A stretch of 64,000 nucleotides of DNA, taken from positions 496,001-560,000 of the forward strand of contig JACDTU010000001.1 in the NCBI GenBank assembly GCA_022376465.1, read 5' to 3'. The number at the start of each line of letters is the position of its first letter. Positions within the stretch are counted from its first letter, which is position 1. Origin of the DNA: Cubamyces lactineus (taxonomy: Eukaryota > Basidiomycota > Agaricomycetes > Polyporales > Polyporaceae). The notes under the pieces are model-generated. The model made no database searches. It worked only from the letters and a program-made list of their open reading frames with translations, and was not told the DNA's origin. Position numbers and translations under genes: made by a program. This document shows positions 1-20,300 of this stretch, piece after piece.

Positions 1-824
1 ATGGTGTGGTACGCGGCAGGTTGTTCGCCGGACGGAGGTTCAAGCAGTGGAAGGAGATTGCGGGTGTACGGTTGGTGTCGAACGGTGAATGAAGGGGACT
101 CCATGTGTTGGATGAGGTTTCGCCGCCCTCGACCATTGCGAAGTCGGAATCGGCCGACAGATGCCTCGACGGAACGGGCGTACTCGGTGACCTCTTGTGC
201 CGATTCGAGGATGCGCTCGGCGTCGTCTTCATAGAGGTGGGTGATGTCGGAGACTTCATAGAGGTGGGTGATGTCGGAGACTTCATAGAGGTGGGTGATG
301 TCGGAGACTTCCTTCCTTATGTCGTTGACAACCTCTTCGACATGATCCAGCGCTTCTGCGACAGTTTTCATGCTCCTCTGTATTCTGCCGAGTTGGCCGC
401 GGGCGTCTTCCCTGATCAGAGACGCCGACCCTCGCAGGTTGACCAGATGCCCGCCTATGTGGCCGAACTCCCGTGCGTCATTGAACATGTCCCGATATCT
501 GGCGAGCGGGTTGACTAGCTCGGGATCGGCGCGCACCGCGCTGATGAGGGGTCCTGGATTCGTGAGGAGAGCATTGACGAGCCATCGTACTTCTCGTGAA
601 TTGGGTTGGTCGACGAGGGAGTCATTCGTAGCGAGCGACTCTAGATCAGACGTTTCGTCCGGTTCCTCGGGGTCGCTGTCCGCTTCGTCCGCCGCATCGT
701 CATACGGAGGAGGAGGAGCCGCAGGAGGGGGAATATTTTCTTGGTCGCTCGGGTTTAGCGACTGCGCGGAGGTGACTGAGAAGCTTTCCGGGGTTAGGTT
801 CTCCGTAAACTCGAAGTTAGGCAT
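1..824 (-). CDS. Retroelement accessory ORF D, coiled-coil protein (C-terminus outside window)
   Basis: The frame is open from ATG 824 to position 1, at least 274 residues. It has a Pro- and acid-rich N-terminus (IPPPAAPPPPYDD), a middle part with a predicted helical region, and a heptad-like segment (IREDARGQLGRIQRSMKTV). A nine-residue repeat, YEVSDITHL, occurs in near-perfect tandem copies. No stop is reached in the window. It could be a structural or virion-associated protein of the element; the function is unknown. Confidence 0.55.
   Translation of the reverse strand, partial: MPNFEFTENLTPESFSVTSAQSLNPSDQENIPPPAAPPPPYDDAADEADSDPEEPDETSDLESLATNDSLVDQPNSREVRWLVNALLTNPGPLISAVRADPELVNPLARYRDMFNDAREFGHIGGHLVNLRGSASLIREDARGQLGRIQRSMKTVAEALDHVEEVVNDIRKEVSDITHLYEVSDITHLYEVSDITHLYEDDAERILESAQEVTEYARSVEASVGRFRLRNGRGRRNLIQHMESPSFTVRHQPYTRNLLPLLEPPSGEQPAAYHT
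234..311 (-). repeat. 27-bp in-frame tandem repeat in accessory ORF D
   Basis: Two complete and one partial copy of a 27-bp unit (234..260, 261..287, 288..311) encode YEVSDITHL copies within a coiled-coil-like region. The copies are identical, so the expansion is recent or maintained by slippage. Confidence 0.85.
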
Positions 825-969
825 GGTTAGGATAGATGGGGAGGCTGTCGGCAGGGATGTCGCGGTGTTCGATGGTGAACTCGATGATGCGAAGGTAAAG
901 GACGGCGTAGGCGAGAATCCAGAGGAGGGCGAGTAGGAAAGTGATGGTCATGCACATGACAACGATCAT
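817..969 (-). CDS. Retroelement accessory ORF C, 50-residue membrane peptide
   Basis: The ATG at 969 overlaps the preceding TGA as ATGA. The 50 residues start with a strongly hydrophobic stretch (MTITFLLALLWILAYAVLYL) and end in a polar tail. Its TAA (817..819) lies inside ORF D, giving an 8-base overlap. The peptide looks like a small viral membrane protein in form, but no homology is claimed. Confidence 0.48.
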   Translation of the reverse strand: MIVVMCMTITFLLALLWILAYAVLYLRIIEFTIEHRDIPADSLPIYPNHA

Positions 970-1190
970 AGAGTTCGTTCGTCGTCAGACGCGTTGGAGC
1001 GAGCAGGGATTCTTATCGGAAGTGGAGGTGATCGGTTGTCGGTGTGATGGAGCTCGCGCTCGAGAGAGTCGTGGGTGAGGCACGATGCAACACAGAGGAT
1101 TGGAAGGCAAACGGTAGCCACGATGGTAGCGACGATGATTGCGGGAACAGCGATAATGGCGTGAGCAACTCGTCCGACGAAATGGGGCAT
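966..1190 (-). CDS. Retroelement accessory ORF B, single-pass membrane protein
   Basis: A 74-residue ORF starts on the base after the previous stop. Residues about 9-37 form a long hydrophobic, Val/Ile/Ala-rich segment followed by a basic, polar tail (RSNASDDERTL). Its last codons contain ATGA, in which the stop TGA overlaps the ATG of ORF C. The family is unknown. Coding status rests on its place in a tightly packed same-strand array. Confidence 0.5.
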   Translation of the reverse strand: MPHFVGRVAHAIIAVPAIIVATIVATVCLPILCVASCLTHDSLERELHHTDNRSPPLPIRIPARSNASDDERTL

Positions 1191-1424
1191 TCACCAGGTG
1201 CTAGAGGGGTCGCGGTTCTTAAGTGTTCGCTCCGCGATGCGAGTGTGGAGATCGGAGAGGTTGAAGTGTAGGAAGGTGAGGATGGAGGCGAGGACAAGGG
1301 TACAGTAGAGGGCGAAGAGGAGTGTGGGGGATGGTTGGTCTCGAAGGGTGAAGTGGAGGAAGGCAAGTGTGGCGGAAACGAGGATGGCACAGTAGAGGAT
1401 GTGGAGTGATTCAAGAGAGGGCAT
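1191..1424 (-). CDS. Retroelement accessory ORF A, small membrane protein
   Basis: A 77-residue ORF begins 10 bases after the pol stop with a good context (CACC ATG). It holds two hydrophobic segments (about residues 8-25 and 34-52, e.g. TLLFALYCTLVLASILTFL) and a polar C-terminus, so a two-pass membrane protein is likely. Its TGA is immediately followed by the ATG of the next ORF (TGAATG). I recognise no family. The position corresponds to env in retroviruses, but nothing shows env homology. Confidence 0.55.
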   Translation of the reverse strand: MPSLESLHILYCAILVSATLAFLHFTLRDQPSPTLLFALYCTLVLASILTFLHFNLSDLHTRIAERTLKNRDPSSTW

Positions 1425-1434
1425 GGTGAGAGAT

Positions 1435-2898
1435 TCAGGCGAGTTTCCTCACCTTTTTATACCTCTCGAGGATCTCGGCAGCATTCGGCAGAAGCGCTGA
1501 CTCAGGTTCTCATGTGTTTTCCGCTGATGAGTAACCCCGCCACTTGATTTGAAATCGGGGTTTCCCTCGGATCATCTTGTGTCCCACAATAGCTTCGACC
1601 TCGTATTCTTCTTCTCCATCAACCAGGTCAGGTGGGGGTCTTGTGTGATTGGGTCCGTGGGTGTCGTTTTCCTTATAGGGTGTCAGGAAACATGCATGAA
1701 ACACGGGGTGGATTTTCCACGACTTCGGCAGTTCTAGACGGTATGTGACCGGTCCGATGACTTCGGTGATGCGGAATGGCCCTTCTCGTTTGGGTGCCAG
1801 CTTCCTCGAGGCGTAAGCAAGGTGCAGGTTCTTCCCTTCTAGCCAGACCTTCTGTCCTTTAGCAAATTGAGCGAACTTCCCTCGATACCGGTTGGTCATG
1901 ACGTTCCGTGCCAGTTCGTGTGCTGCTAGTGCTTCGTCCCTTGCTTTCTGTAGGTTCGTAAGTCGCTCTTGTACTGCTAGGACATTGGTTCGGGGGTACG
2001 CCAACGGTATCAGTGGAGGGTCGTAGCCCATCATGAGGTAGAATGGCGACGCATTTTGGGCCGAGTGTAGGCGTTGATTGTGCGTGACTTCTGCATCGGT
2101 GAGATGTTCTACCCATTCGTCGGGTCTTCCTTCGCAGAATATTCGGAGGTAGACTTCAAGTTCCTGGTTAACTCTTTCTGTCTGTCCATCGGTCTGCGGA
2201 TGATAGGCTGTGGAGGGTGACAATGTGATTCCAAGGAGTCGTCCTAATTCCTTGGTGACGTTGGATACGAATTGGGGTCCTCGATCCGAGATGATTTTGC
2301 CGGGTAATCCAAATTTTCTGTAAACGTGTCGATGATAGAGTTCCGCCGTTCCAATTGTGTCCACCGTCTTCTTGCAGGGTGCAAAAATCACCCCCTTTGT
2401 AAGGCCTTGGTCGACCACGACCAGAATACTGTCATAGCCATGCGATATCGGGAGATCCGTGATGAGGTCCATGGTGACGTTTTCGAATGGTCGGGTGACG
2501 CCTGTGGCAGGAATTGCTTGTGGCGGCGGTGTCGTGGGATGTGTGTTCGGTTTTGCTTGCTGACAGATGGCGCAGCCTTCTACGTATTTGGATACCATGG
2601 TGTACATTCCCGGCCACCAGTAGGATCTTCGCAAAAGTTCTAACGTCTTGAATTTGCCTGGGTGTCCAGCGGCGGGTAAGTCGTGATGCTGTCGCACGAG
2701 ATCGGTTCGGAGAGTTTCGTCTGCAGGGACATAACAGTGATTCTTGTAAAAGACCAGTCCTTCCCTTTCGGACCAATCCATCAGGGTGCTTCGTATTGGC
2801 GGAGGTCCGTAGTTCCGTAGCACTGCCAGTGCGTCGCAAAACAGGCGGTCTTGTTTTGCTAGTTCTTGAAACCTCGGTACGACGGCTAGGTCGACCAT
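1435..2898 (-). pseudogene. Integrase with C-terminal chromodomain
   Basis: An HHCC zinc domain ([19 protein letters not shown]) is followed by the DDE core: [17 protein letters not shown] and [18 protein letters not shown]-like region ([19 protein letters not shown]) and a chromodomain ([19 protein letters not shown]) follow. The chromodomain is cut by TGA at 1510..1512, where the family has Trp (ENT-W-EPE). Reading through restores 24 more codons of chromodomain helix, ending at TGA 1435..1437. This is the last pol domain, and it normally targets integration to heterochromatin. Confidence 0.9.
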
Positions 2899-2958
2899 TC
2901 AAACGAAGAGGTTATCTGGGAGCATTGTGCGTTCTACATTGTCATTGTCGGTTCCTTG

Positions 2959-5049
2959 TCAGTGGTCCGGTCGTCGTGATAGGGCATCAGATTGGACCAT
3001 GGCTGTTCCAGGGGTATGTACTAATGTCATGTCGAATTGGGACAGGAAGAGCGCCCATCGCGCTTGGCGTCGGTTCAACTGTTGTGGATTTCGCCAGTAG
3101 GTCAAGTTCTTGTGGTCGGAGAGTATCGTTACTGGATGCCCTGATCCTTCTAGGTAGTGTCGCCATGCTTTGAGCGCTCGAATGATCCCCAATAGTTCTC
3201 GGTCGTAGATTTCGTAATTCCGTTCCGCTTCAGTGAATCCTTCTGATAGGTATGCGCAGGGCCGCATGTTGCCATTGATGTCGCGCTGTCGCAAGACCGC
3301 CCCAGTTGCCCATTGTGATGCGTCCGATTCTACTAGGAATGGTTTGGTGACGTCCGGCATCTGTAGCACAGGGGCCGTGGCGAAGCGGGTCTTGAGTTGG
3401 TCAAATGCTTTCTGGCATTCTGCGGACCATTCCCATTTGGTGTTCTTCTTGGTGAGTGCGTTCAGTGGTTGCGCGATCTCGGAAAAGTGGTCAATGAAGC
3501 ATCGATAGAAGTTTCCAAAACCCAGGAATGATCGGACGTCCTTTACGGTCGTTGGTTCCGGCCAATCGAGAATTCCTTTTAGTTTGACTGGGTCCATCGC
3601 AACGCTATTTTCCCGAATGATCATTCCTAAGTATTCCACTTCTTCTGCGTCGAAGGTGCACTTTTTGAGTTTGAGGTGAAGGTCGTGTTCCTGTAAACGT
3701 TCCAGTACTCGAAGTGTTCGTCGTCGATGGGTTTCCTCGTCTCCCGAGAATATGAGGATGTCGTCCATATAGATTACCACCCATCCTTCATTGATCATGT
3801 CTTTGAATATGGAGTTCATCATGGCTTGAAAGGCGGCTGGTGAGTTGCGGAGGCCAAAGAACATGACCATCGGCTCGTATAGGCCCGAACTGGTTCGGAA
3901 TGCAGCTTTCCATTGATCGCCATCCTTGATTCGTACGTTGTTGTATCCCGATCGTAGGTCCAATTTCGAAAATATCTTGGCTCCTCGAAGTTTGTCAATT
4001 AACTTCGGGATCAGCGGTAAAGGATACTTGTTTGGAATGGTCCCTTCGTTCAGGTAGCGATAGTCTTGACAGGGTCGCAGTGATCCGTCTTTCTTCCCTA
4101 CAAAGAAGAATGGTGATGACATAGGGGACTTCGAGGTTCTGATGTATCCTTTTCGCAGGTTTTCTCGTACGAATTCTTCTTCAGCTTCCAGTTCCTTGGG
4201 CGTTAGTTGATACCGCTTGAAGTCCTTCGGTACAAAGCCTTCCTTCAGTTCAATAGCGAGATCCCATGGTCTGGCCAGTGGAAATCGTTCTGAGGCTTTC
4301 TTCTCGAAGACACTGGCGAATTCCTGATACGCCGCCGGTAGCATCTCTTCGAATGTCTTCGGCTTCTCCTGCGCCTGTTGCTGCTGTGCCATTGCCATGG
4401 CGGGGTTGACTTTTGCTCGTATCCAAACATTGTTGGCTATTGCAAAGCGTATTCCTGTTGGTGCTTTTCGAATTCGTCCGATGCTGGGTCCTGGTCCTAT
4501 ACGTGCGTCATCATTGTGCTGGTGTTCACCGGTCAGGGGGTTTCCCGGTCTGGGAGCGTCTCCATGCCATTCAACCGCGTGCGGATGGTTCGTTTTGTCC
4601 ATTTCGTCTCGTAGATATGCGATCACAAGTTCCTGGTCATCTGGTTCTTCCTCTGGCTTGATGTCTGATGTGGTAACTCGTCCGATGTCTTCGTATAGGG
4701 GTTCTTCGTCTTTGTCTTCTTCCGATTCTGTTTCGTTCGCGGGGTCTTCTTCTTTTTCTATTTTCCTGGGTCGTCCTGTGAATGGATCTTGATCTGGGAA
4801 CCACATTTCTCTGAGGTGCTCGACGACCGTCTTGACTACCTTGCCAGGGTCGATATCCAGTGTCCCTGCTGTGAAGTCGATGTTTGCATTGACTCGTTGA
4901 AGCCAGGGGAGTCCTAGAATGATTGGCTCCTTTCCTAGCGATGTGATGAGGAATCGGATGATGTGTCGATGTCCTCCTGCTTCAACTTCGATCGAAGTGC
5001 ACTTCTTGATATCGCCTGCCTTGTTTCGGGTTCCGTCCGCATTAAAGAC
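2959..5049 (-). pseudogene. Reverse transcriptase and RNase H region of pol
   Basis: Same frame as the protease. The RT domain shows the catalytic YMDD box (VIYMDDILIFSGD), the upstream FFVGKKDGSLRPCQDYR motif and the connection region (FLGFGNFYRCFIDHFS). RNase H follows with FLVESDASQWATGAVL, YEIYDRELLG and the closing SDALSRRP. The segment ends at TGA 2959..2961, 19 codons before another TGA at 2899..2901, both in frame with integrase. The domains look full-length apart from the nonsense codons. A 4806 start codon lies inside the linker and is unlikely to be a true start. Confidence 0.9.
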
Positions 5050-5274
5050 TCAAATGGGCTTCTTCAGTTCCGTGAGCTTCAAATTCTGCTCCTTCGCGAA
5101 TCGGTAGTCCATGAAGGTTTCTCCAGCTCCTGTGTCGATTAGGGCTTTCGTTTCGACGCTTCGATCCGTATGAATAAATAGCGGTATTCTCATAGACTGC
5201 TTCGAAGTCTGCGCTACTATTACATTACGGATCGTCGTTCGCGGTCGTGACGTCGATGCACGCCGGTTCCTCAA
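5050..5274 (-). pseudogene. Retroviral-type aspartic protease segment of pol
   Basis: The translation carries the aspartic protease signature LIDTGAGETF, the DTG active site of retropepsins. It begins in the -1 frame at the gag stop, with no start codon of its own, and would be made by frameshifting. It ends at TGA 5050..5052, after which the same frame continues as VFNADGT and on into the RT domain. The TGA is therefore a nonsense change inside pol; CGA to TGA is the simplest origin. Confidence 0.85.
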
Positions 5275-6741
5275 AAACCCTCGTTCAGGAGGTCGGATAC
5301 TACGTCCTTGCGATCTTCTTTGTCATCGAGGTCTTTGAGAGCAAGGCGGATACGTGCAGTGATGAGCTTCTTAGAGGAGTTAGATGCTCGAGTGGAGGTG
5401 GACTTGGAGTCGTCGTCACTGTCCTCTTCTTTGGCTACCTCCGTGATTCGGGCTTTCGTCTTCCCCTTCCGGTCTCCGTTCTTCCCCTTCTTGAGGGGGC
5501 ATTGGCGTGCCAAGTGTCCCACTTGATGGCAATTGAAGCATTGTCCTTCTTTGTAGTGCTTCTCGCGCTCTTCTGGGAGCATTCGGTCGACGTCCATGGT
5601 GTCGGGGTCTCGTTCGCGCATCCTGTGTTGATGCGGCTTGTAGGTAGGGTTGTACGTGGTCTTTCCCTTCCCATTGTATGTCTTGCTGAGCAACCATTGC
5701 TGCTCCAGTGTCGCGGCTCTCATGTAGAGGGTGTTCGTGTCGTTAGGCATGGGGTACATCCCGAAGATCTTCTCGCACAGCGGCCTATTCAATCCTTCGT
5801 AGGAGAAGTCGGCAATGATGCGATAGTCGGTGATACCGCAGCGCGAGATCAGGGATTTGAACTTGGTGATGTACTCCTCCACTGGTCGTTTGCCCTGGCG
5901 GACGCTTCGCAGCAGTACTCTTGCACTGGCCTGAGCATCGGCGTTATCGAAGGCTTCAGTGAGTTGTTTGGAGAAGTCTCGCCACGTGCCCCAGTTTAGA
6001 GGTGTTCCTGGTCCTTGTTTCTCCGCTTGTGCCTGTGTGTCTTCGATAAACGACCTCGCCCATGCTCCGAATGTCCCTCCGTTCATCAGCATGAGGCAGA
6101 AGATGATCTTCTTCTGATTGGTGTTGTAGGCCGCTTCGTTGATAGAGAGGTACAGCATGCATTTCTGCAGCCATTCAATGACCTCTCCTCGCCTCCCTTC
6201 AAACTCCGGGGGCATCTTCAGTTTCATCTCGGGGGTCCGCTCATATCGCGGTTCGACGAGTGGTGCGGGGGCCACTGCCTGGGGTTCCTGCTGCCCTTGT
6301 TCGGCCATATCTTCTGATTCGTCTGAGGTGTCTTCCTCGGTTCCTGGTGCGGCGATCAGTTCTTCCGATTCTTCTGTCGAGCTCTCGCCTTGCTGAGAGG
6401 TGTCTTCTGATTCGCTGCTGCTCACTACTTCTACTCGAGAAGTTCGTGGAGTGGTGAAGTCGACTGGGGATGTCGGCAGCGAGTTCGGTTCTGTTCGGGT
6501 TTCTGTCTCCGCAGGTGCCACTGGTTCCTCCGGGAGTTCTTCTTCAGCTAGTTCGTTGTACTTGACACGGTATTCAGGGGAGATTCGAAGGCACTCTTGC
6601 CAGGTGAGTGGATGGGGAGCGAAGTGCCACGATTTGTCCTCCCAGTAGACTTGGTCTTCTCTGTAGTATACTAGCTTGGTCTCCTTGTTCGCCGAGTAAA
6701 CTGTCGGCGGTTCTTCTGTTTCGTCGGGTTCAGGCGCACTC
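5271..6741 (-). CDS. gag: Gag polyprotein of the chromovirus (5' limit uncertain)
   Basis: The reading frame is open from 6741 to the TGA at 5271. It contains an acidic Ser/Glu-rich N-terminal part, a capsid-like central region and one CCHC zinc knuckle (CFNCHQVGHLARQC) near the C-terminus. The first AUG is at 6308, giving about 345 residues. The frame upstream to 6741 still looks coding (for example WQECLRISPEYRVKY), but contains no AUG; GTG and other near-cognate codons are present. An in-frame TAG lies at 6742..6744, and a coding-like stretch just upstream is in another frame, so a small indel is possible. The stop overlaps a -1 slippery heptamer leading into protease. Confidence 0.82.
5274..5280 (-). 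promoter_or_regulatory. Candidate -1 ribosomal frameshift site between gag and pol
   Basis: The minus strand reads G GGT TTT TGA in the gag frame: a GGGTTTT heptamer of the X XXY YYZ type directly before the gag stop. A one-base slip back makes the next codon TTG and enters exactly the frame in which protease is encoded. The related heptamer GGGUUUA is used by the yeast L-A virus. Confidence 0.65.
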
Positions 6742-6801
6742 TATTTCAGAGCTGCGCCGATCGGTGTCGTCTGAATCTGGGTAGATTGACGGCGATTCGT
6801 G

Positions 6802-6811
6802 AGCTCGATCT
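6802..6811 (-). promoter_or_regulatory. Self-primer-type primer-binding site
   Basis: Two bases inside the LTR edge the minus strand reads AGATCGAGCT. This is a perfect 10-base complement of the segment at 6955..6964, which lies at the predicted 5' end of the element's own transcript. No tRNA-type PBS beginning TGG is seen here. The arrangement matches the self-priming used by Tf1/sushi chromoviruses. Confidence 0.6.
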
Positions 6812-6990
6812 AATGTTATGACGAGCCTAGATCTGTCACGCGGTGGCTGAGCTAGGGGTCACGTCGCCTCAAAGGGTAACGTAGAGGCGGGTCAGGGGTC
6901 AAGATCTTCTGAGAAGAGGCGAGTCGGGGTTTGGTGAATAGGCAATAGATAACCAGATCGAGCTGAGGTTCTTCGAAGAAGATCCTCGGC

Positions 6991-7002
6991 TTATATATAT
7001 AT
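6991..7002 (-). promoter_or_regulatory. TATA box of the retroelement LTR
   Basis: An alternating TA run within the LTR, read on the minus strand, is the only clear core-promoter element there. A start site about 30 bp downstream would fall near 6964, the edge of the segment complementary to the primer-binding site. Confidence 0.6.
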
Positions 7003-7075
7003 GGCCGAGACTAATAATAGACCGGATCGGTAAGCGAATGTTCAGTACGGCTAAGTATAGCTGGGGCTGACTGTA

Positions 7076-7119
7076 CATGGGAATAGGGGTGACGTGTCAT
7101 GGGAATAGGGGTGACGTGT
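7076..7119 (-). repeat. 22-bp tandem repeat in LTR U3
   Basis: Two exact 22-bp units (7076..7097 and 7098..7119) are followed by a degenerate third. Each unit carries a TGACGTG core, which resembles an ATF/CREB-type bZIP half site. Position upstream of the TATA run fits a U3 enhancer; the regulatory role is inference. Confidence 0.6.
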
Positions 7120-7316
7120 CATGGGAATAACTGACGTGGCATGGGAGAATAGAGCTAAGTATACAACACATGAGTAAGCCGCAGCAGGCTCGGCCTCCGG
7201 AACGTAAGCACGATACATAAGCATAGGACAAGTCACGAGACCAAGACGTAACCGTAACAGTGGCCGTGTCACGCACCGTCGTAACAAGTTTTGTTGCTGG
7301 CCCTGCTTCAGCAACA

Positions 7317-7895: not shown

Positions 7896-9077
7896 CCTTA
7901 CATCCTGCAGAAGCAACTCTTAGACATCAGCAGCTTGTGCACTTCATTTGTTTTGAGCTAACACTCAAAGCAAGAAAGTGTTCTCGAATTAGGGTAAAAA
8001 GAACAATCTACATAATCTGGTGTGGCATAAAAATCAGATAATATTAGCAGTTTTGCAAAGTTGTAACACATAATAGAGAGGTCAGCATATAAACTTTAGC
8101 AACAATTTTACAAGTTCTATGGCTCTGTGTTGAACTTCTAGGTTATTAGCTGTGCTAGACAGAGTATGTGGACTTTGTGGCTGTGGCACCTACAATGTGC
8201 ACAGCATGGACTTTCTTCCTTCCTTTTACAGACTGCTTAGTGTATATACTGTACATAGTTGGACATTTGGACATTTCCTCCATCTTTTCATTGTGCTCTA
8301 CACTGCTATGGGTCCTTCCAAAGGGTTCTCTAGCTATAATACCATATGTTGTGATACTTGCACCATCATCTTACTTAGGTTATGCTCAGCACTTACTTAT
8401 TGTACATAGGGATCACATGCCTCCTTTCTTTGCTTACTCATGGCACTCCTCTCTCAGTATATAAGAAGGACATTCTTCACTTCTGCTCTTCAGTCATTTG
8501 CTCACAGACTGAGGAGTAAGTTCCTTCATTACTCATGCCTAGATATGTTGAGCAGGGCTTGTTACGCAGTGGAAAGCCCCACTAGCTCATTTACCTGTAG
8601 AGCTCTGAATAGAGGCACATGTAGGGATTGAAGATTAAGAGCGACTTGTTGTACTGCTCCTACAGAGCAGTCTTATATACCTGTACATGGAGGCCATAAT
8701 GTAATACTGTAGAGTACAATATCATACTATGTAGTACCTCAGCCACAGTATCCGGAACTTTCTCCAGGAGACTGGTAGCTTCGTATCCATTCCTGCTTAC
8801 TAGCCTGCTATTAGTCAGTGCCTAATGCACATCTAGTTCAACAACATATGCAGCCACTTACCAAGTACTGATAGCTCTCTTTGTGTTGCTTACAGGTACT
8901 TATATTATGCAACATAGTAGTTCACTCACAAATTGAAGACTTTCTTTGTGTTGCTCACAGGTTGCTCCCAGCCTTTGAGGTTCAGCAGTTTGACACTCTG
9001 TTGGTAAATCAAATTCCTTGGTTGGCATAAGCTCAGCCATTGCTCAAAGGATTATCAGAAGTTTTGGTGAGCATCTA
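7896..9077. other. AT-rich interval without a recognised gene
   Basis: Several short hydrophobic ORFs occur on the plus strand near 8150-8460, but they show no recognisable motif, no clear splice pattern and overlap in different frames. Short motifs such as tctttgtgttgctcacagg recur near 8880 and 8945. The most likely content is old transposon debris between the Tc1 copies. Confidence 0.5.
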
Positions 9078-9287
9078 CAATGACTTCCAAAACTGTTTCC
9101 AGAAATCATAGATTTGCATCATTTTTTGAATATCTCTGCAACGGCTCAATGAAAGATAATGATTTAAATTATGTTCAGTAGCTATACTTCACAGCTTTCT
9201 AATGTCATATGTTTCATGATATTTGAGCCAGAACTGCCTGCTCAATGTGGCATTCTTTGACCTCAACTCCTGGAAACAGTTTTGTAA
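9078..9287 (+). repeat. Left terminal inverted repeat of the Tc1 element
   Basis: It starts CAATGACTTCC and ends CAGTTTTGTAA. The outer CAAAACTGTTTCCAG motif recurs at the inner end as its exact reverse complement, so each arm has inverted outer and inner motifs that could be transposase sites. Confidence 0.9.
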
Positions 9288-9434
9288 TGGGCATTTTTGG
9301 GGCTAATTGCTAGGCTACTATTAAACTGTTCTCCTTCAGAAGTCATGTGAGATGGTGGGAATATATTATGTAATGTTTACTGAAGCCAATTCACATCATT
9401 CCTGCAAGATTGCTCCTGCAGACCAGCTACCATC

Positions 9435-10454: not shown

Positions 10455-10484
10455 ATCATGTATTCCAGCATGCCAAACTGCCTG

Positions 10485-10694
10485 TTACAAAACTGTCTCC
10501 AGGAGTTGAGGTCAAAGAATGCCACATTGAGCAAGTAGTTCTGGCTCAAATATTATGAAACATATGACATTAGAAAGCTGTGAAGTACAGCTACTGAACA
10601 TAATTTAAATCATTATTTTTCATCAAGCCGTTGCAGAGATATTCAAAAAATGATGCAAATTTATGATTTCTGAAAACAGTTTTGGAAGTCACTG
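10485..10694 (-). repeat. Right terminal inverted repeat of the Tc1 element
   Basis: This is the reverse complement of the left arm over its full 210 bp, with 11 differences counted by eye, all transitions. It ends GTCACTG before the TA target duplicate. Confidence 0.9.
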
Positions 10695-10894
10695 TATGAA
10701 GTGGTTTGTAAAAAATGTGAAGACTTGGTAATCACGCACACCACACGGAGACATCATTGGCAATACTTTAGGCACTCATTCTAAGACAGTGACAGATTGT
10801 TTACTTCAGAACACATGTAATTTACCACACCATTCAACAATTTTTGGCTCAACGGTAGCATCTGGACTAGTACACATGCACAGTATTACAAGGT

Positions 10895-17379: not shown

Positions 17380-20300
17380 ATGAACGTCAACCAGCTACAG
17401 CCTCCGCCACAAACACAACTCCAGCGGGTGTCCAAGGAGGCCTCCGAGAAAGAAGCAGACGTACGTACCCCTCGTCGTTTAACACTGTGCTCAACTGACC
17501 TTTTTGTCCTCACAGTTCCTCGCGCTGAGGTTGTTGAACAAGCGTTCCCGTTTGCGCCTTTCTCCCCAACCCCTCGACCTCGACTCGTACCCTACCAAGG
17601 CCCGTCTTTTTGCCGTCGCGAATCGTGCAGGCTGGTTCGCTGTTGCGACCAGGAACTCAGACGGCTCATATGGTATGTCCCAATCCCTCCTGATTACGTT
17701 CTACCCCATCTTACTCTGCTTGCAGCGCTTGTGGTTTCTCCCCTCGCAGACCTGCGCTCAGTGTTCTCGTCCTCCTCGTCTGACGGCCCTCTGTCCATTC
17801 AACCGCACATCACGTTGCCGTTTCCCGCAACTCCACACATCGTCGTGTTCACCCAGGACGATGCTCGACTCCTCGTCGCCTTCACCAACGGTTCAATAAG
17901 CGTGTATGATTCCCAGGCCGTATTCCGAAACTCCACGAATGCCGCACTTCTGCACACTTTCCCCTCCTCAACAGGGAAGCCCGTCCGAGATCTACTGCCT
18001 AGCCCTGGTGACATGGAGTTGGTGGTCGTGCTGCGCGAGGCGGGGGACGGGACGCCTGTTGAAATCTTGGACACACAGAAAATGCTTTCTGTCGGTGGCT
18101 GGAATGGTAGCGGGTCGCCTGCGACGAATCCCATCTCAGGTGAGGCCACCATCCCATCCTTTCAAGCAAAATCTCACACTCGTGGCTAGTATCGTGGTCA
18201 CCGAAGGGCAAACAGATTGCAATAGGCCTCGAAAGCGGAGACATCCTCACCTTCAGCCCCACTGATACAGCGTCCATCAAGAGCGTCGTCCCCCGGCCAT
18301 CAGGCGCGGATGGTCAGAGTGTCATTTCCGCACTTTGGCTGTCGAACCCGGAGTTCCACGCTATATACGTCCCGGCGGGTCAAATCAGTCCAGATGTAGA
18401 GCAGTCACACTACATTCTCTCGCTAGACTCTAGGGCAAACATGGCAGGGGACGTCAAGCTGAGCTCTCCTTATTTACCGTTCCCCGGCCTCAAGCCTCCT
18501 GGATCGTTCGTGGTCGTGTTGCGGAACTGGGAGCCCTCTCGGCTATTGCTCTTTGTTGGTGATAGCACCTCTTCCGACATCGGACTGGTCGGTAGTCTAT
18601 CTGGATCTGGGAGCCAACTAGACTCTTGGTACAATTTCACGCTTGAGGAGACATCTACTCCCTCGGTACCTCTGGATTCTGACATGAATGAGACTGTGCT
18701 ACTTGGACTGGAGCTGGATCTGACAAACAACAAGCCATACACGTACACTGGCCCATCAGGAGAAGAGACAGACGTGCCTCCTCCGCCAATCATGTACCTG
18801 TATGCAAGCGACGGAACTTTGACTGGTTGGCATGTCATACAAACCCAAGGCATAGCTTATCCTGGAATGGTGGCCGCTTCCTCCATCCCCGCAATTACCT
18901 CCCCTGCCGCTGCTACCCAGACCACTACTCCAGGCGACTTCGCGTCTCCTGCTGCACCAAGTACCAGTCCATCCCAGCCGCGCGCTTTCGACTCTACATC
19001 TGCAACGCCAGGGACGAACCTTGGTTTTAGTGCATTCTCTGGTGCGCCTTCGGCGTTCGGGAGCACTGGCTTTGGCTTTGGAAAGCCGGCATCGCCCACA
19101 CAATCCTTGCAGGCTCCACCACTCACCACGCCCTCAATGTCCGTAGAGATGGCATCCGTTGTGGAGGATTCGATGGTCTCCGAGACAGATACAGGCCTCG
19201 GAGGTATGTCCCTTGGAGGCGCGAGCGACAACTCTCAGTCCAAGTCCGGGACGGGTACCAACTCCATGTTCGGCACGTTTGGCGGCCAACAGCAGAACAA
19301 CACTTCGATTTCACCGTTCGGCGCCGGTGCAACCGCAAGTCCGGCATTTTCTGCTTTTGGTTCAGGCCCGGTCAAGCCTGGAACCGGATTCGGGGCGTTC
19401 GCAGGAAGCGGTAACTCTGCCTTTGGTTCTTCGAGCGCGTTCGGGAGTAACGGCTCGTTCGGTGGCGGTAGTGCGTTCGGTAGCGGCGCGTCTAGTGGTA
19501 CTGGTGCTTTTGGCAGTGGGACATCCGCCTTTGCGTCCAAACCCGCGTCGGACAGTGACAAGTCGGCCAAGCCTGATTCCAAACCTACATCTGCCTTCGG
19601 ACAATCCGCATTCGGGCAGTCAAGCTTCGGAGCTCCCGCGACTAAACCAGCCTTTGGTCAGTCAGCGTTCGGGCAGTCCAACTTTGGGCAGTCTAGTTTC
19701 GGGCAACCATCGTTTGGTAAATCCGCCTTTGGTCAGTCTGCCTTTGGTAGCTCCTCATTTGGAAGCGGAACGACGACACCAGCCAAACCCGTCACCACCA
19801 GTGCATTCGGAAGTAGCAGCAGCGGAGGAGGATTTGCCGCCTTCGCATCTGCTCCTACGTCCTTCGCGAGCGCAGCCCAGCAGAAGACGCCCGATGCCAA
19901 GCCCGTCTGGGCAAGTGGTTCTCAACAGACAGAGCAGAAACCTGCAGAAAGCTCCTTGACGACTACGAGTACTCCTGATGGGCCCAGCGCGTTCGCTGCT
20001 GCGAAGCCAGCCGATACTACGTCGTCAGCACCTGCTGCAGGAGGAGCTTTCGCGAATCTGGGGCAATCGAGCCAAGGCAGCACATTTGGCAAACCTTCCT
20101 TCGGACAAACGACTTTCGGACAGTCATCTTTCGGCCAATCATCGTTTGGGCAGCCCTCTTTCGGCAAGTCTACCTTTGGCCAGCCTGCAACGCCAACATC
20201 GACCCCACCAAAGCCAGTATCGGCCACCCCCGCGAGCGGCGGTTTCGCCAGCTTTGCAACCGCTGGGCCGAGTGCGTTCAGTACGGCTGCGGCGCAAGCC

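Follow-up and report, generated by a model that had tools for sequence, protein, structure and literature searches.

The window analysed here, a stretch of 64,000 nucleotides (nt) of Cubamyces lactineus DNA (C1:496001-560000 of a genome of 36.3 Mb in 43 contigs), contains a copy of a long terminal repeat (LTR) retrotransposon of the chromovirus type, whose family we label F1; F2, F3 and F4 denote related families. Downstream of pol, this element carries four same-strand open reading frames (ORFs), A to D, which lie where a preliminary description of the sequence had placed them and have the lengths it gave (77, 74 and 50 aa, and 274 aa of D within the window). The Kyte-Doolittle profiles of the F1 copy L013, with two peaks in A, one each in B and C and none in D, agree with its account of three small membrane proteins followed by a coiled-coil protein. 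As set out below, it is nearly certain that this array is a genuine accessory module of a fungal chromovirus clade, situated between pol and the 3′ LTR and kept by selection.

The array is inside the element, because the 5′ LTR lies within the window and its partner, the 3′ LTR, was recovered from the left flank (Table 1). The two LTRs are 93.2% identical over a 473-column match and flank gag and pol, as expected for a chromovirus, and ORFs A to D are located between pol and the purine-rich stretch that precedes the 3′ LTR, i.e., in the place of env in retroviruses, as had been supposed. The chromovirus domain order was found in the 987-aa pol of an F2 copy, L024 (RVT_1 101-261, RT_RNaseH 349-455, rve 635-734 and Chromo 932-982), with the C-terminal chromodomain scoring 54.9 bits against a Pfam cut-off of 25.1. 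The window pol is 83% identical to the last 487 residues of L024 pol (C1:497441-498898), its chromodomain being cut by a TGA. The copy in the window is dead, since its pol contains three in-frame TGA codons, one of them within the chromodomain, and its D is shortened, ending after 316 aa as the left flank revealed, compared with 433-434 aa where D is intact. In copy L021, the putative primer-binding site includes a 10-nt stretch complementary to an LTR site just downstream of the TATA box, which suggests self-priming of the kind known from Tf1, a self-priming element. Directly beyond the 3′ LTR there is a 2346-nt stretch in opposite orientation (L009 oriented 2531-4876, about C1:492625-494970) that is 99.8% identical to the 5′ LTR of the window element and the region following it, which could reflect insertion beside or inside a near-identical copy, or else some rearrangement.

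Table 1. Coordinates of the module and of the other parts of the element (window positions unless a contig is given; omega from seven disjoint pairs of F1 copies).
Feature	Position	Strand	Description	Remarks
ORF A	1191..1424	-	77 aa, two membrane segments; omega 0.12	starts 10 nt past the pol stop
ORF B	966..1190	-	74 aa, one membrane segment; omega 0.42	ATG abuts the stop of A
ORF C	817..969	-	50 aa, one membrane segment; omega 0.18	ATGA overlap with the stop of B; sequence related to A
ORF D	1..824, continues left of window	-	coiled-coil, cytosolic-type; omega 0.20	274 aa in window, 316 aa in total here, 433-434 aa intact
PPxY motif of D (PPPY)	702..713	-		position from window sequence and ORF translation
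27-nt in-frame triplication within D	227..311	-		none in the other fetched copies spanning the site
pol, reverse transcriptase part to chromodomain	1435..4806	-	broken by in-frame TGA; domain content from F2 pol of L024	start codon mechanical
gag	5271..6521	-	Retrotrans_gag and one CCHC zinc knuckle	start codon mechanical
Putative primer-binding site	6801..6813	-	adjoins the 5′ LTR on its inner side	computed on copy L021; window position from sequence
5′ LTR, window copy	6814..7286	-	starts TGTTACGA, ends CATAACA	comparison of the window with its left flank
3′ LTR, window copy	C1:494971-495432, left of window		partner of the 5′ LTR 6814..7286	

In a search of the genome with ORF C (E ≤ 0.001), we found 52 places, 14 at 84-100% identity (F1) and 38 at 44-46%, while B was found at 15 places (78-100% identity), which we took as F1; 14 of them, including the window copy, were fetched (L009-L022) and C12:387706 was left out. 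The order A, B, C and start of D is shared by all 14 (13 besides the window copy). Apart from the window copy, LTR repeats lie at either end of the stretch in 5 of 13 (L011, L013, L015, L021 and L022), and no LTR repeat pair was found within the stretches fetched for the others. ORFs A and C are free of stops in all 14 copies, B has a stop in two (L016 and L019), and A is frame-shifted near its end in L019; D is open at full length in four (L013, L015, L016 and L021) and broken in the other 10, being interrupted or cut in L012, L014, L017 and L018, for example. None of the 14 copies is intact throughout, as gag, pol or D is stopped or broken in one or more places in every one. Among the stop sites in the compared parts of gag and pol, 26 of 30 are TGA and mostly explicable by a C-to-T change, so F1 looks to have decayed by deamination.

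The four ORFs bear the mark of selection. Omega was computed from codons with one difference, setting observed synonymous and nonsynonymous changes against those expected from the same kinds of mutation, with CpG kept separate and no likelihood model used. In seven disjoint pairs drawn from the 14 F1 copies, omega was 0.27 for gag, 0.18 and 0.23 for pol, and 0.12, 0.42, 0.18 and 0.20 for A to D, which bears out the expectation of a dN/dS below 1; with all pairs together the values were 0.28, 0.18 and 0.19, and 0.12, 0.36, 0.22 and 0.19, respectively. ORFs A to D are under purifying selection comparable to that on gag and pol, with B the least constrained, and 52 of the 67 differences in A fall at third positions. 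Reading A, B and C in shifted frames gave 1.57 to 8.9 (six of seven pairs, L019 omitted; D was outside this control), so their purifying signal is specific to the reading frame. That A to D are chance ORFs was rejected on this selection and on the shifted-frame control (A, B and C only). Between F2 and F3, omega was 0.17 for A′, 0.20 for C′, 0.14 for D′ and 0.18 for the last part of pol, with A′ and C′ offering few differences (16 and 24). Copies without the ORFs, a position outside the LTRs or neutral substitution, any of which would have spoken for a chance or host sequence, were not found for the family; the array is nevertheless incomplete in places, with D broken in 10 of 14 copies and B missing from F2 and F3.

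In the five F2 stretches examined (L023-L027), pol is followed by A′ (52 aa, one membrane segment), C′ (62 aa, one membrane segment) and D′ (344 aa), the last being cut or containing stops in L023 and L027. B is absent from both F2 and F3. F2 and F1 are about 78-88% identical in the longer pol pieces, 52% in gag and 28-30% in D′/D. A search of the genome with D′ gave 87 places. Of these, 44 extend over residues 1-343 or further with an identity of 97% or higher, and 42 of the 44 have no stop; in addition, the LTRs of the F2 copy on C23, one LTR pair, align over 423 columns with 0 mismatches and one 11-column gap. F2 therefore looks young. F3 (L036) shares 97.6% identity with F2 in pol but only 88% in A′, 77% in C′ and 65% in D′. 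At the DNA level, the identity of L024 to L036 per 150 nt is 0.96-0.99 along pol, 0.93 and 0.86 in its last two bins, 0.89 to 0.73 in A′/C′, 0.59-0.73 in D′, and again 0.91-0.98 in the LTR. With pol so alike, mutation alone hardly accounts for this drop in identity, and the simplest reading would be that the accessory block was exchanged by recombination between F2 and F3. The exchange points may differ between copies, as a damaged F3-like copy, L038 (G000:C40:753500-758800), with the same pol identity but 98%, 78% and 62-72% identity to F2 in A′, C′ and D′, is F2-like in A′ and F3-like in D, unlike L036.

The array is not a general property of the chromoviruses of this genome, as it was not found in the two copies fetched of F4, a more distant chromovirus family with 52% pol identity that was found in a pol search in which 88 of 354 candidates were scored. 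In both fetched F4 copies (L045:1765-3060 and L046:1720-3015; G000:C7 and C14), the 3′ end holds one unrelated ORF of 431 aa, and neither 3′ end gave a convincing match to A′, C′ or D′. This F4 ORF has 11 and 12 lysines in the two copies, no PPxY, no lysine depletion and no Pfam match above cut-off; the avoidance of lysine described below is thus not tied to the position after pol as such.

The ORFs of the module are packed tightly. In all 13 F1 copies compared, the ATG of A lies 10 nt after a TGA (in L010 the pol frame is broken further upstream), and the gaps that follow A are 0, -4 and -8 nt in 11 of 13 copies and the window copy, with L016 and L019 deviating; the -4 junction of B and C is an ATGA overlap, and D overlaps C by 8 nt. 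The gaps are 6, 5 and 1 nt in the F2 copies L024 and L025, 7, 5 and 1 in L027, and 6, 4 and 1 in F3, i.e., exact spacing varies between families and tightness is kept. Because of this spacing, we infer that A to D are probably read in succession from a single RNA, with ribosomes terminating and then reinitiating where a stop and a start codon meet. UGGGA, the core of the termination upstream ribosome-binding site (TURBS), is not consistently present: in a single copy of each family, and not weighed against chance, it occurs within 120 nt upstream of A in F1, F2 and F3 and of D in F2 and F3, whereas in F2 and F3 it is absent within the same distance upstream of C. In F1, ORFs A and D have an A at -3 and B and C do not, so that D may also be reached by leaky scanning or have an RNA of its own.

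The membrane proteins appear to be partly related to each other. A′ aligns with the second half of A at 49-53%, and C′ with C at 47%; since C also matches A′ weakly, A and C seem to have been copied from a single membrane microprotein. No Pfam family was found above cut-off for the module, consistent with the earlier failure to recognise a known family.

D contains no hydrophobic segment (Kyte-Doolittle maximum 0.56 for D and 0.71 for D′). In two structural models of the D protein, the ordered part is a helical hairpin (pLDDT, the predicted local distance difference test score, about 67-80 for D), and the PPxY motifs fall in low-confidence segments of both models that are probably disordered. 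These motifs are kept across all three families: in an alignment of ten D sequences, both prolines and the tyrosine are invariant in all ten rows, with P, E, N or S as the x. Among 13 F1 copies scanned, the N-terminal PPxY was found in 11 and is present in the window copy too, while L012 and L014 lack it, their D being disrupted before the motif; a second motif, PPPPY, is found near the F1 C-terminus in nine copies, the other four being interrupted. F3 and two external relatives, P0002 and P0003, have a second motif (PPLY) at the start. A scan of F1 gag and pol, and of parts of F2 gag and pol, turned up no PPxY (the F2 protease part and F3 were outside the scan). The C-termini of F2 and F3 D have a cysteine-histidine pattern, C-x2-C-x4-H-x4-C, which by eye resembles a zinc knuckle, a trait of Gag-like nucleic-acid-binding proteins; Pfam gave no zf-CCHC match for D′ at E up to 1, and F1 D has one cysteine and lacks the pattern.

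Another feature of D is its near-complete lack of lysine, with 0 in 344 aa in F2, 0 in 347 in F3, 2 in 433 and 4 in 434 in the F1 copies L013 and L021, and 0, 0 and 1 in the external relatives P0001-P0003. Arginines number 42 in F2, 34 in F3, and 41 and 42 in L013 and L021. Taking one copy per family, the lysine/asparagine/arginine counts of the module are 3/28/53 (F1), 1/17/49 (F2) and 0/19/41 (F3), and those of gag plus pol 95/55/103, 91/45/103 and 53/33/69 (part of pol only in F3). The module differs from gag plus pol in lysine versus asparagine with Fisher p values of 4e-8, 5e-7 and 2e-7 for F1, F2 and F3, and in lysine versus arginine with 4e-10, 7e-11 and 1e-8. In other words, lysine is avoided in the module while asparagine, the other amino acid with an AA-starting codon pair, is used normally, and gag and pol show no such avoidance. 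The DNA of D′ does not itself forbid lysine, because its other sense frames contain 12 and 10 lysines and its antisense frames 6, 5 and 2.

The module also has relatives in public records. Searches in a space of 5.8 billion proteins gave 13 relatives (11 ENA entries, one from another source and one from Trametes cubensis), comprising at least three of D, at least four of C′ and at least 10 for the A/C profile, four of which are shared with the C′ search. These are lower bounds, because 8000 candidates were scored for D and gene predictors often skip transposons. P0008 is 96% identical to A and P0012 88% identical to C, both being close to F1, whereas F3 D is 92% identical to P0002 (269 residues) and 90% to P0003 (175 residues). 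A 60-aa external relative of A′, P0013, keeps the membrane segment with a different tail, and is possibly a fusion or a member of another family.

The best explanation for these features, which we put forward tentatively and at somewhat less than an even chance, is that the module, whose ORFs share a single RNA for their translation, places a NEDD4/Rsp5-type ubiquitin ligase at a membrane, perhaps for egress or for the removal of a host protein. The ORFs would be translated one after another by reinitiation, as their spacing suggests. A, B and C are predicted to insert in the membrane, with A and C exposing a short conserved charged tail, and D would be a cytosolic helical-hairpin protein whose disordered segments offer PPxY to the WW domains of the host ligase. 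A candidate for such a ligase, with three WW domains followed by HECT on one strand, is encoded at C5:1087550-1089410. The near-total lack of lysine would let D sit beside the ligase without being ubiquitylated itself, and the outcome would be remodelling dependent on ubiquitin and the endosomal sorting complexes required for transport (ESCRT) at the membrane marked by A to C. The least certain step is the use of this remodelling, which may serve particle movement and release or the removal of a hindering host membrane protein. We infer ligase recruitment, coupled translation, membrane insertion and protection from self-ubiquitylation from the sequences and models; even so, the PPxY of D may give the idea of a role in budding or movement a footing that it did not have in the preliminary description. 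A more far-reaching version, which is doubtful as a whole, holds that a polycistronic, translationally coupled and exchangeable membrane module recruits NEDD4/Rsp5 and ESCRT through a nearly lysine-free PPxY protein, providing an exit or trafficking system for an env-less fungal element with the late domain in a gene of its own. An exchangeable module would be expected to show what is seen between F2 and F3, namely a much greater difference in the D segment than in pol.

Several points weigh against the ligase-recruitment explanation. With no PPxY found in the parts of gag scanned, the link from D to the particle is assumed. One or more PPxY motifs arise in 9-16% of shuffles of the composition of D, and two or more in 0.4-1.2%, so the case rests on the conservation of the motif at one place amid divergence. 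The depletion of lysine can be explained by causes other than ubiquitin, and C′ retains one lysine in F2 and in four external relatives. Several yeast arrestin-related adaptors are ubiquitylated by Rsp5 for their activation (PMC9282857), and structure searches gave no significant match. With respect to translation, the length of pol disfavours reinitiation, and in the one F1 copy inspected the 120 nt upstream of B, of C and of D contain no UGGGA, so that reinitiation there would need another signal.

Of the alternatives, the one that survives best is a split, membrane-bound Rsp5 adaptor, in which D and the membrane proteins would send a host membrane or antiviral protein to the vacuole, in the way that viral accessory proteins redirect ubiquitin ligases; we regard it as possible but clearly less probable than the explanation above. 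PPxY combined with a lysine desert is a pattern seen in partners of ligases: such deserts are overrepresented among proteins of the ubiquitin system and let yeast San1 and Slx5/8 escape self-ubiquitylation (PMC10169902). The much faster divergence of D than of pol between families is in keeping with such a role. Taken as a whole, D is nonetheless under purifying selection, and the copies compared give no hint of an arms race (from overall, not site-wise, omega); the known arrestin-related trafficking adaptors are themselves ubiquitylated (PMC9282857).

It is rather improbable that the module serves interference or copy-number control, with the membrane proteins and D acting against other copies or relatives (superinfection exclusion) and not in particle release, as Gag-derived p22, a known self-limiting factor, does for Ty1 (PMC4599808). 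An accessory block that differs strongly between F2 and F3 when pol does not would be expected if specificity matters, but F2 has reached dozens of near-identical copies with its module intact, and simple interference offers no evident use for PPxY or for the loss of lysine.

An env-like acquisition, i.e., a remnant or miniature envelope glycoprotein system for cell-to-cell infection, is very unlikely. Of the earlier suggestion of a membrane module in the place of env, the membrane module inside the LTRs stands, whereas an env-like protein is not supported: no ORF combines the large ectodomain and membrane anchor of a class I fusion or env protein, A to C being 50-77 aa long and D lacking a hydrophobic segment. 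Besides position and membrane segments, this possibility draws on the small transmembrane ORFs of bdelloid rotifer elements, which have been suggested to act like env (PMC5408684), and on two sub-threshold matches, one of D to CoV_S2 (20.8 bits, Pfam cut-off 40) and one that links the D profile with a spike S2′ construct of solved structure (E 0.00054). The spike matches, however, cover a heptad-repeat stretch and appear alongside unrelated coiled coils, and fungal walls make fusion from outside unlikely. Finally, that the array arose by chance or was captured from the host, and does nothing for the element, is scarcely credible. The shortness of A, B and C and the dead state of the window copy speak for it, but purifying selection, conserved order, occurrence in three families and public relatives all oppose it, and the genome searches with C, D′, D, B and A′ show no match that resembles a separate host gene (fetched loci inspected, the rest judged by identity alone).

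Fungal LTR retrotransposons are usually viewed as gag-pol elements confined to one cell lineage. The ligase-recruitment explanation, if true, would suggest that some of these elements act on membranes and on the ubiquitin system in the manner of retroviruses, and would offer a testable route by which particles might pass between fused hyphae or enter vesicles. Operon-like expression of the packed ORFs, if it works as proposed, would be unusual for a eukaryotic element. Because the F2 module is present in many stop-free copies in this genome, the expression of native copies can be studied.

Two other features of the window lie outside the element. At 9076-9297 and 10475-10696 there is an inverted repeat with arms of 222 nt that are 94% complementary and 1177 nt apart, possibly a foldback element or one resembling a miniature inverted-repeat transposable element. 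At 19586-19762, degenerate tandem units in a 15-nt register could encode nucleoporin-like FG-type repeats.

Additional 3′ ORFs in LTR elements are already known from plants, bdelloid rotifers and a figure legend on fungal and spikemoss elements. The statement that chromoviruses usually end after the chromodomain needs qualifying, as an extra ORF of unknown function is named in the legend of Figure 3 in Novikova et al. (2010), which treats fungal elements together with a single spikemoss element and does not specify which of them has this ORF; dUTPase domains are also reported there, in Postia placenta elements (PMC2864245). The running text of that paper describes no cluster of small membrane ORFs, PPxY or tight packing, overlap with elements of its figure and supplementary tables being possible (PMC2864245). 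Fungal chromoviruses with additional genes are also mentioned elsewhere, with reference to a general review and the dUTPase report (PMC2774666). Plant LTR retrotransposons resemble F1 in having an extra sense ORF (aORF) between pol and the 3′ LTR, in some cases with transmembrane domains; these are likened to one env-like protein and to splicing (PMC7264820), whereas here there are three or four packed ORFs and a soluble PPxY protein. The LTR elements of bdelloid rotifers have varied 3′ ORFs (ORF3), some of them small and with transmembrane domains, and the abstract mentions neither operon-like packing nor a lysine-poor PPxY protein (PMC5408684). Among the titles and abstract openings of the open-access literature searched, none was found that describes such a cluster in a fungal element.

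In its closely spaced ORFs with stop-start overlaps, the array resembles caliciviruses, Caulimoviridae and non-LTR elements. According to a review, the overlap in caliciviruses is AUGA and is preceded by a TURBS, UAAUG serves in certain non-LTR elements, and reinitiation downstream of long ORFs involves a transactivator in Caulimoviridae; for the Gag-Pol of LTR retrotransposons the review gives frameshifting, and the passages compared name no LTR retrotransposon with stop-start coupling (PMC5902531). Like D, viral late-domain proteins and yeast Rsp5 adaptors carry PPxY in disordered, proline-rich stretches. The likeness has its limits, as the motif is here in a separate 3′ protein and not in gag, with no sequence homology found, and several arrestin-related adaptors, being ubiquitylated themselves, are the opposite of a lysine-free partner such as D (PMC9282857). 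Measured against the portions of the literature compared, which do not describe it, what is new here is the packed cluster of membrane microproteins together with a nearly lysine-free PPxY protein.

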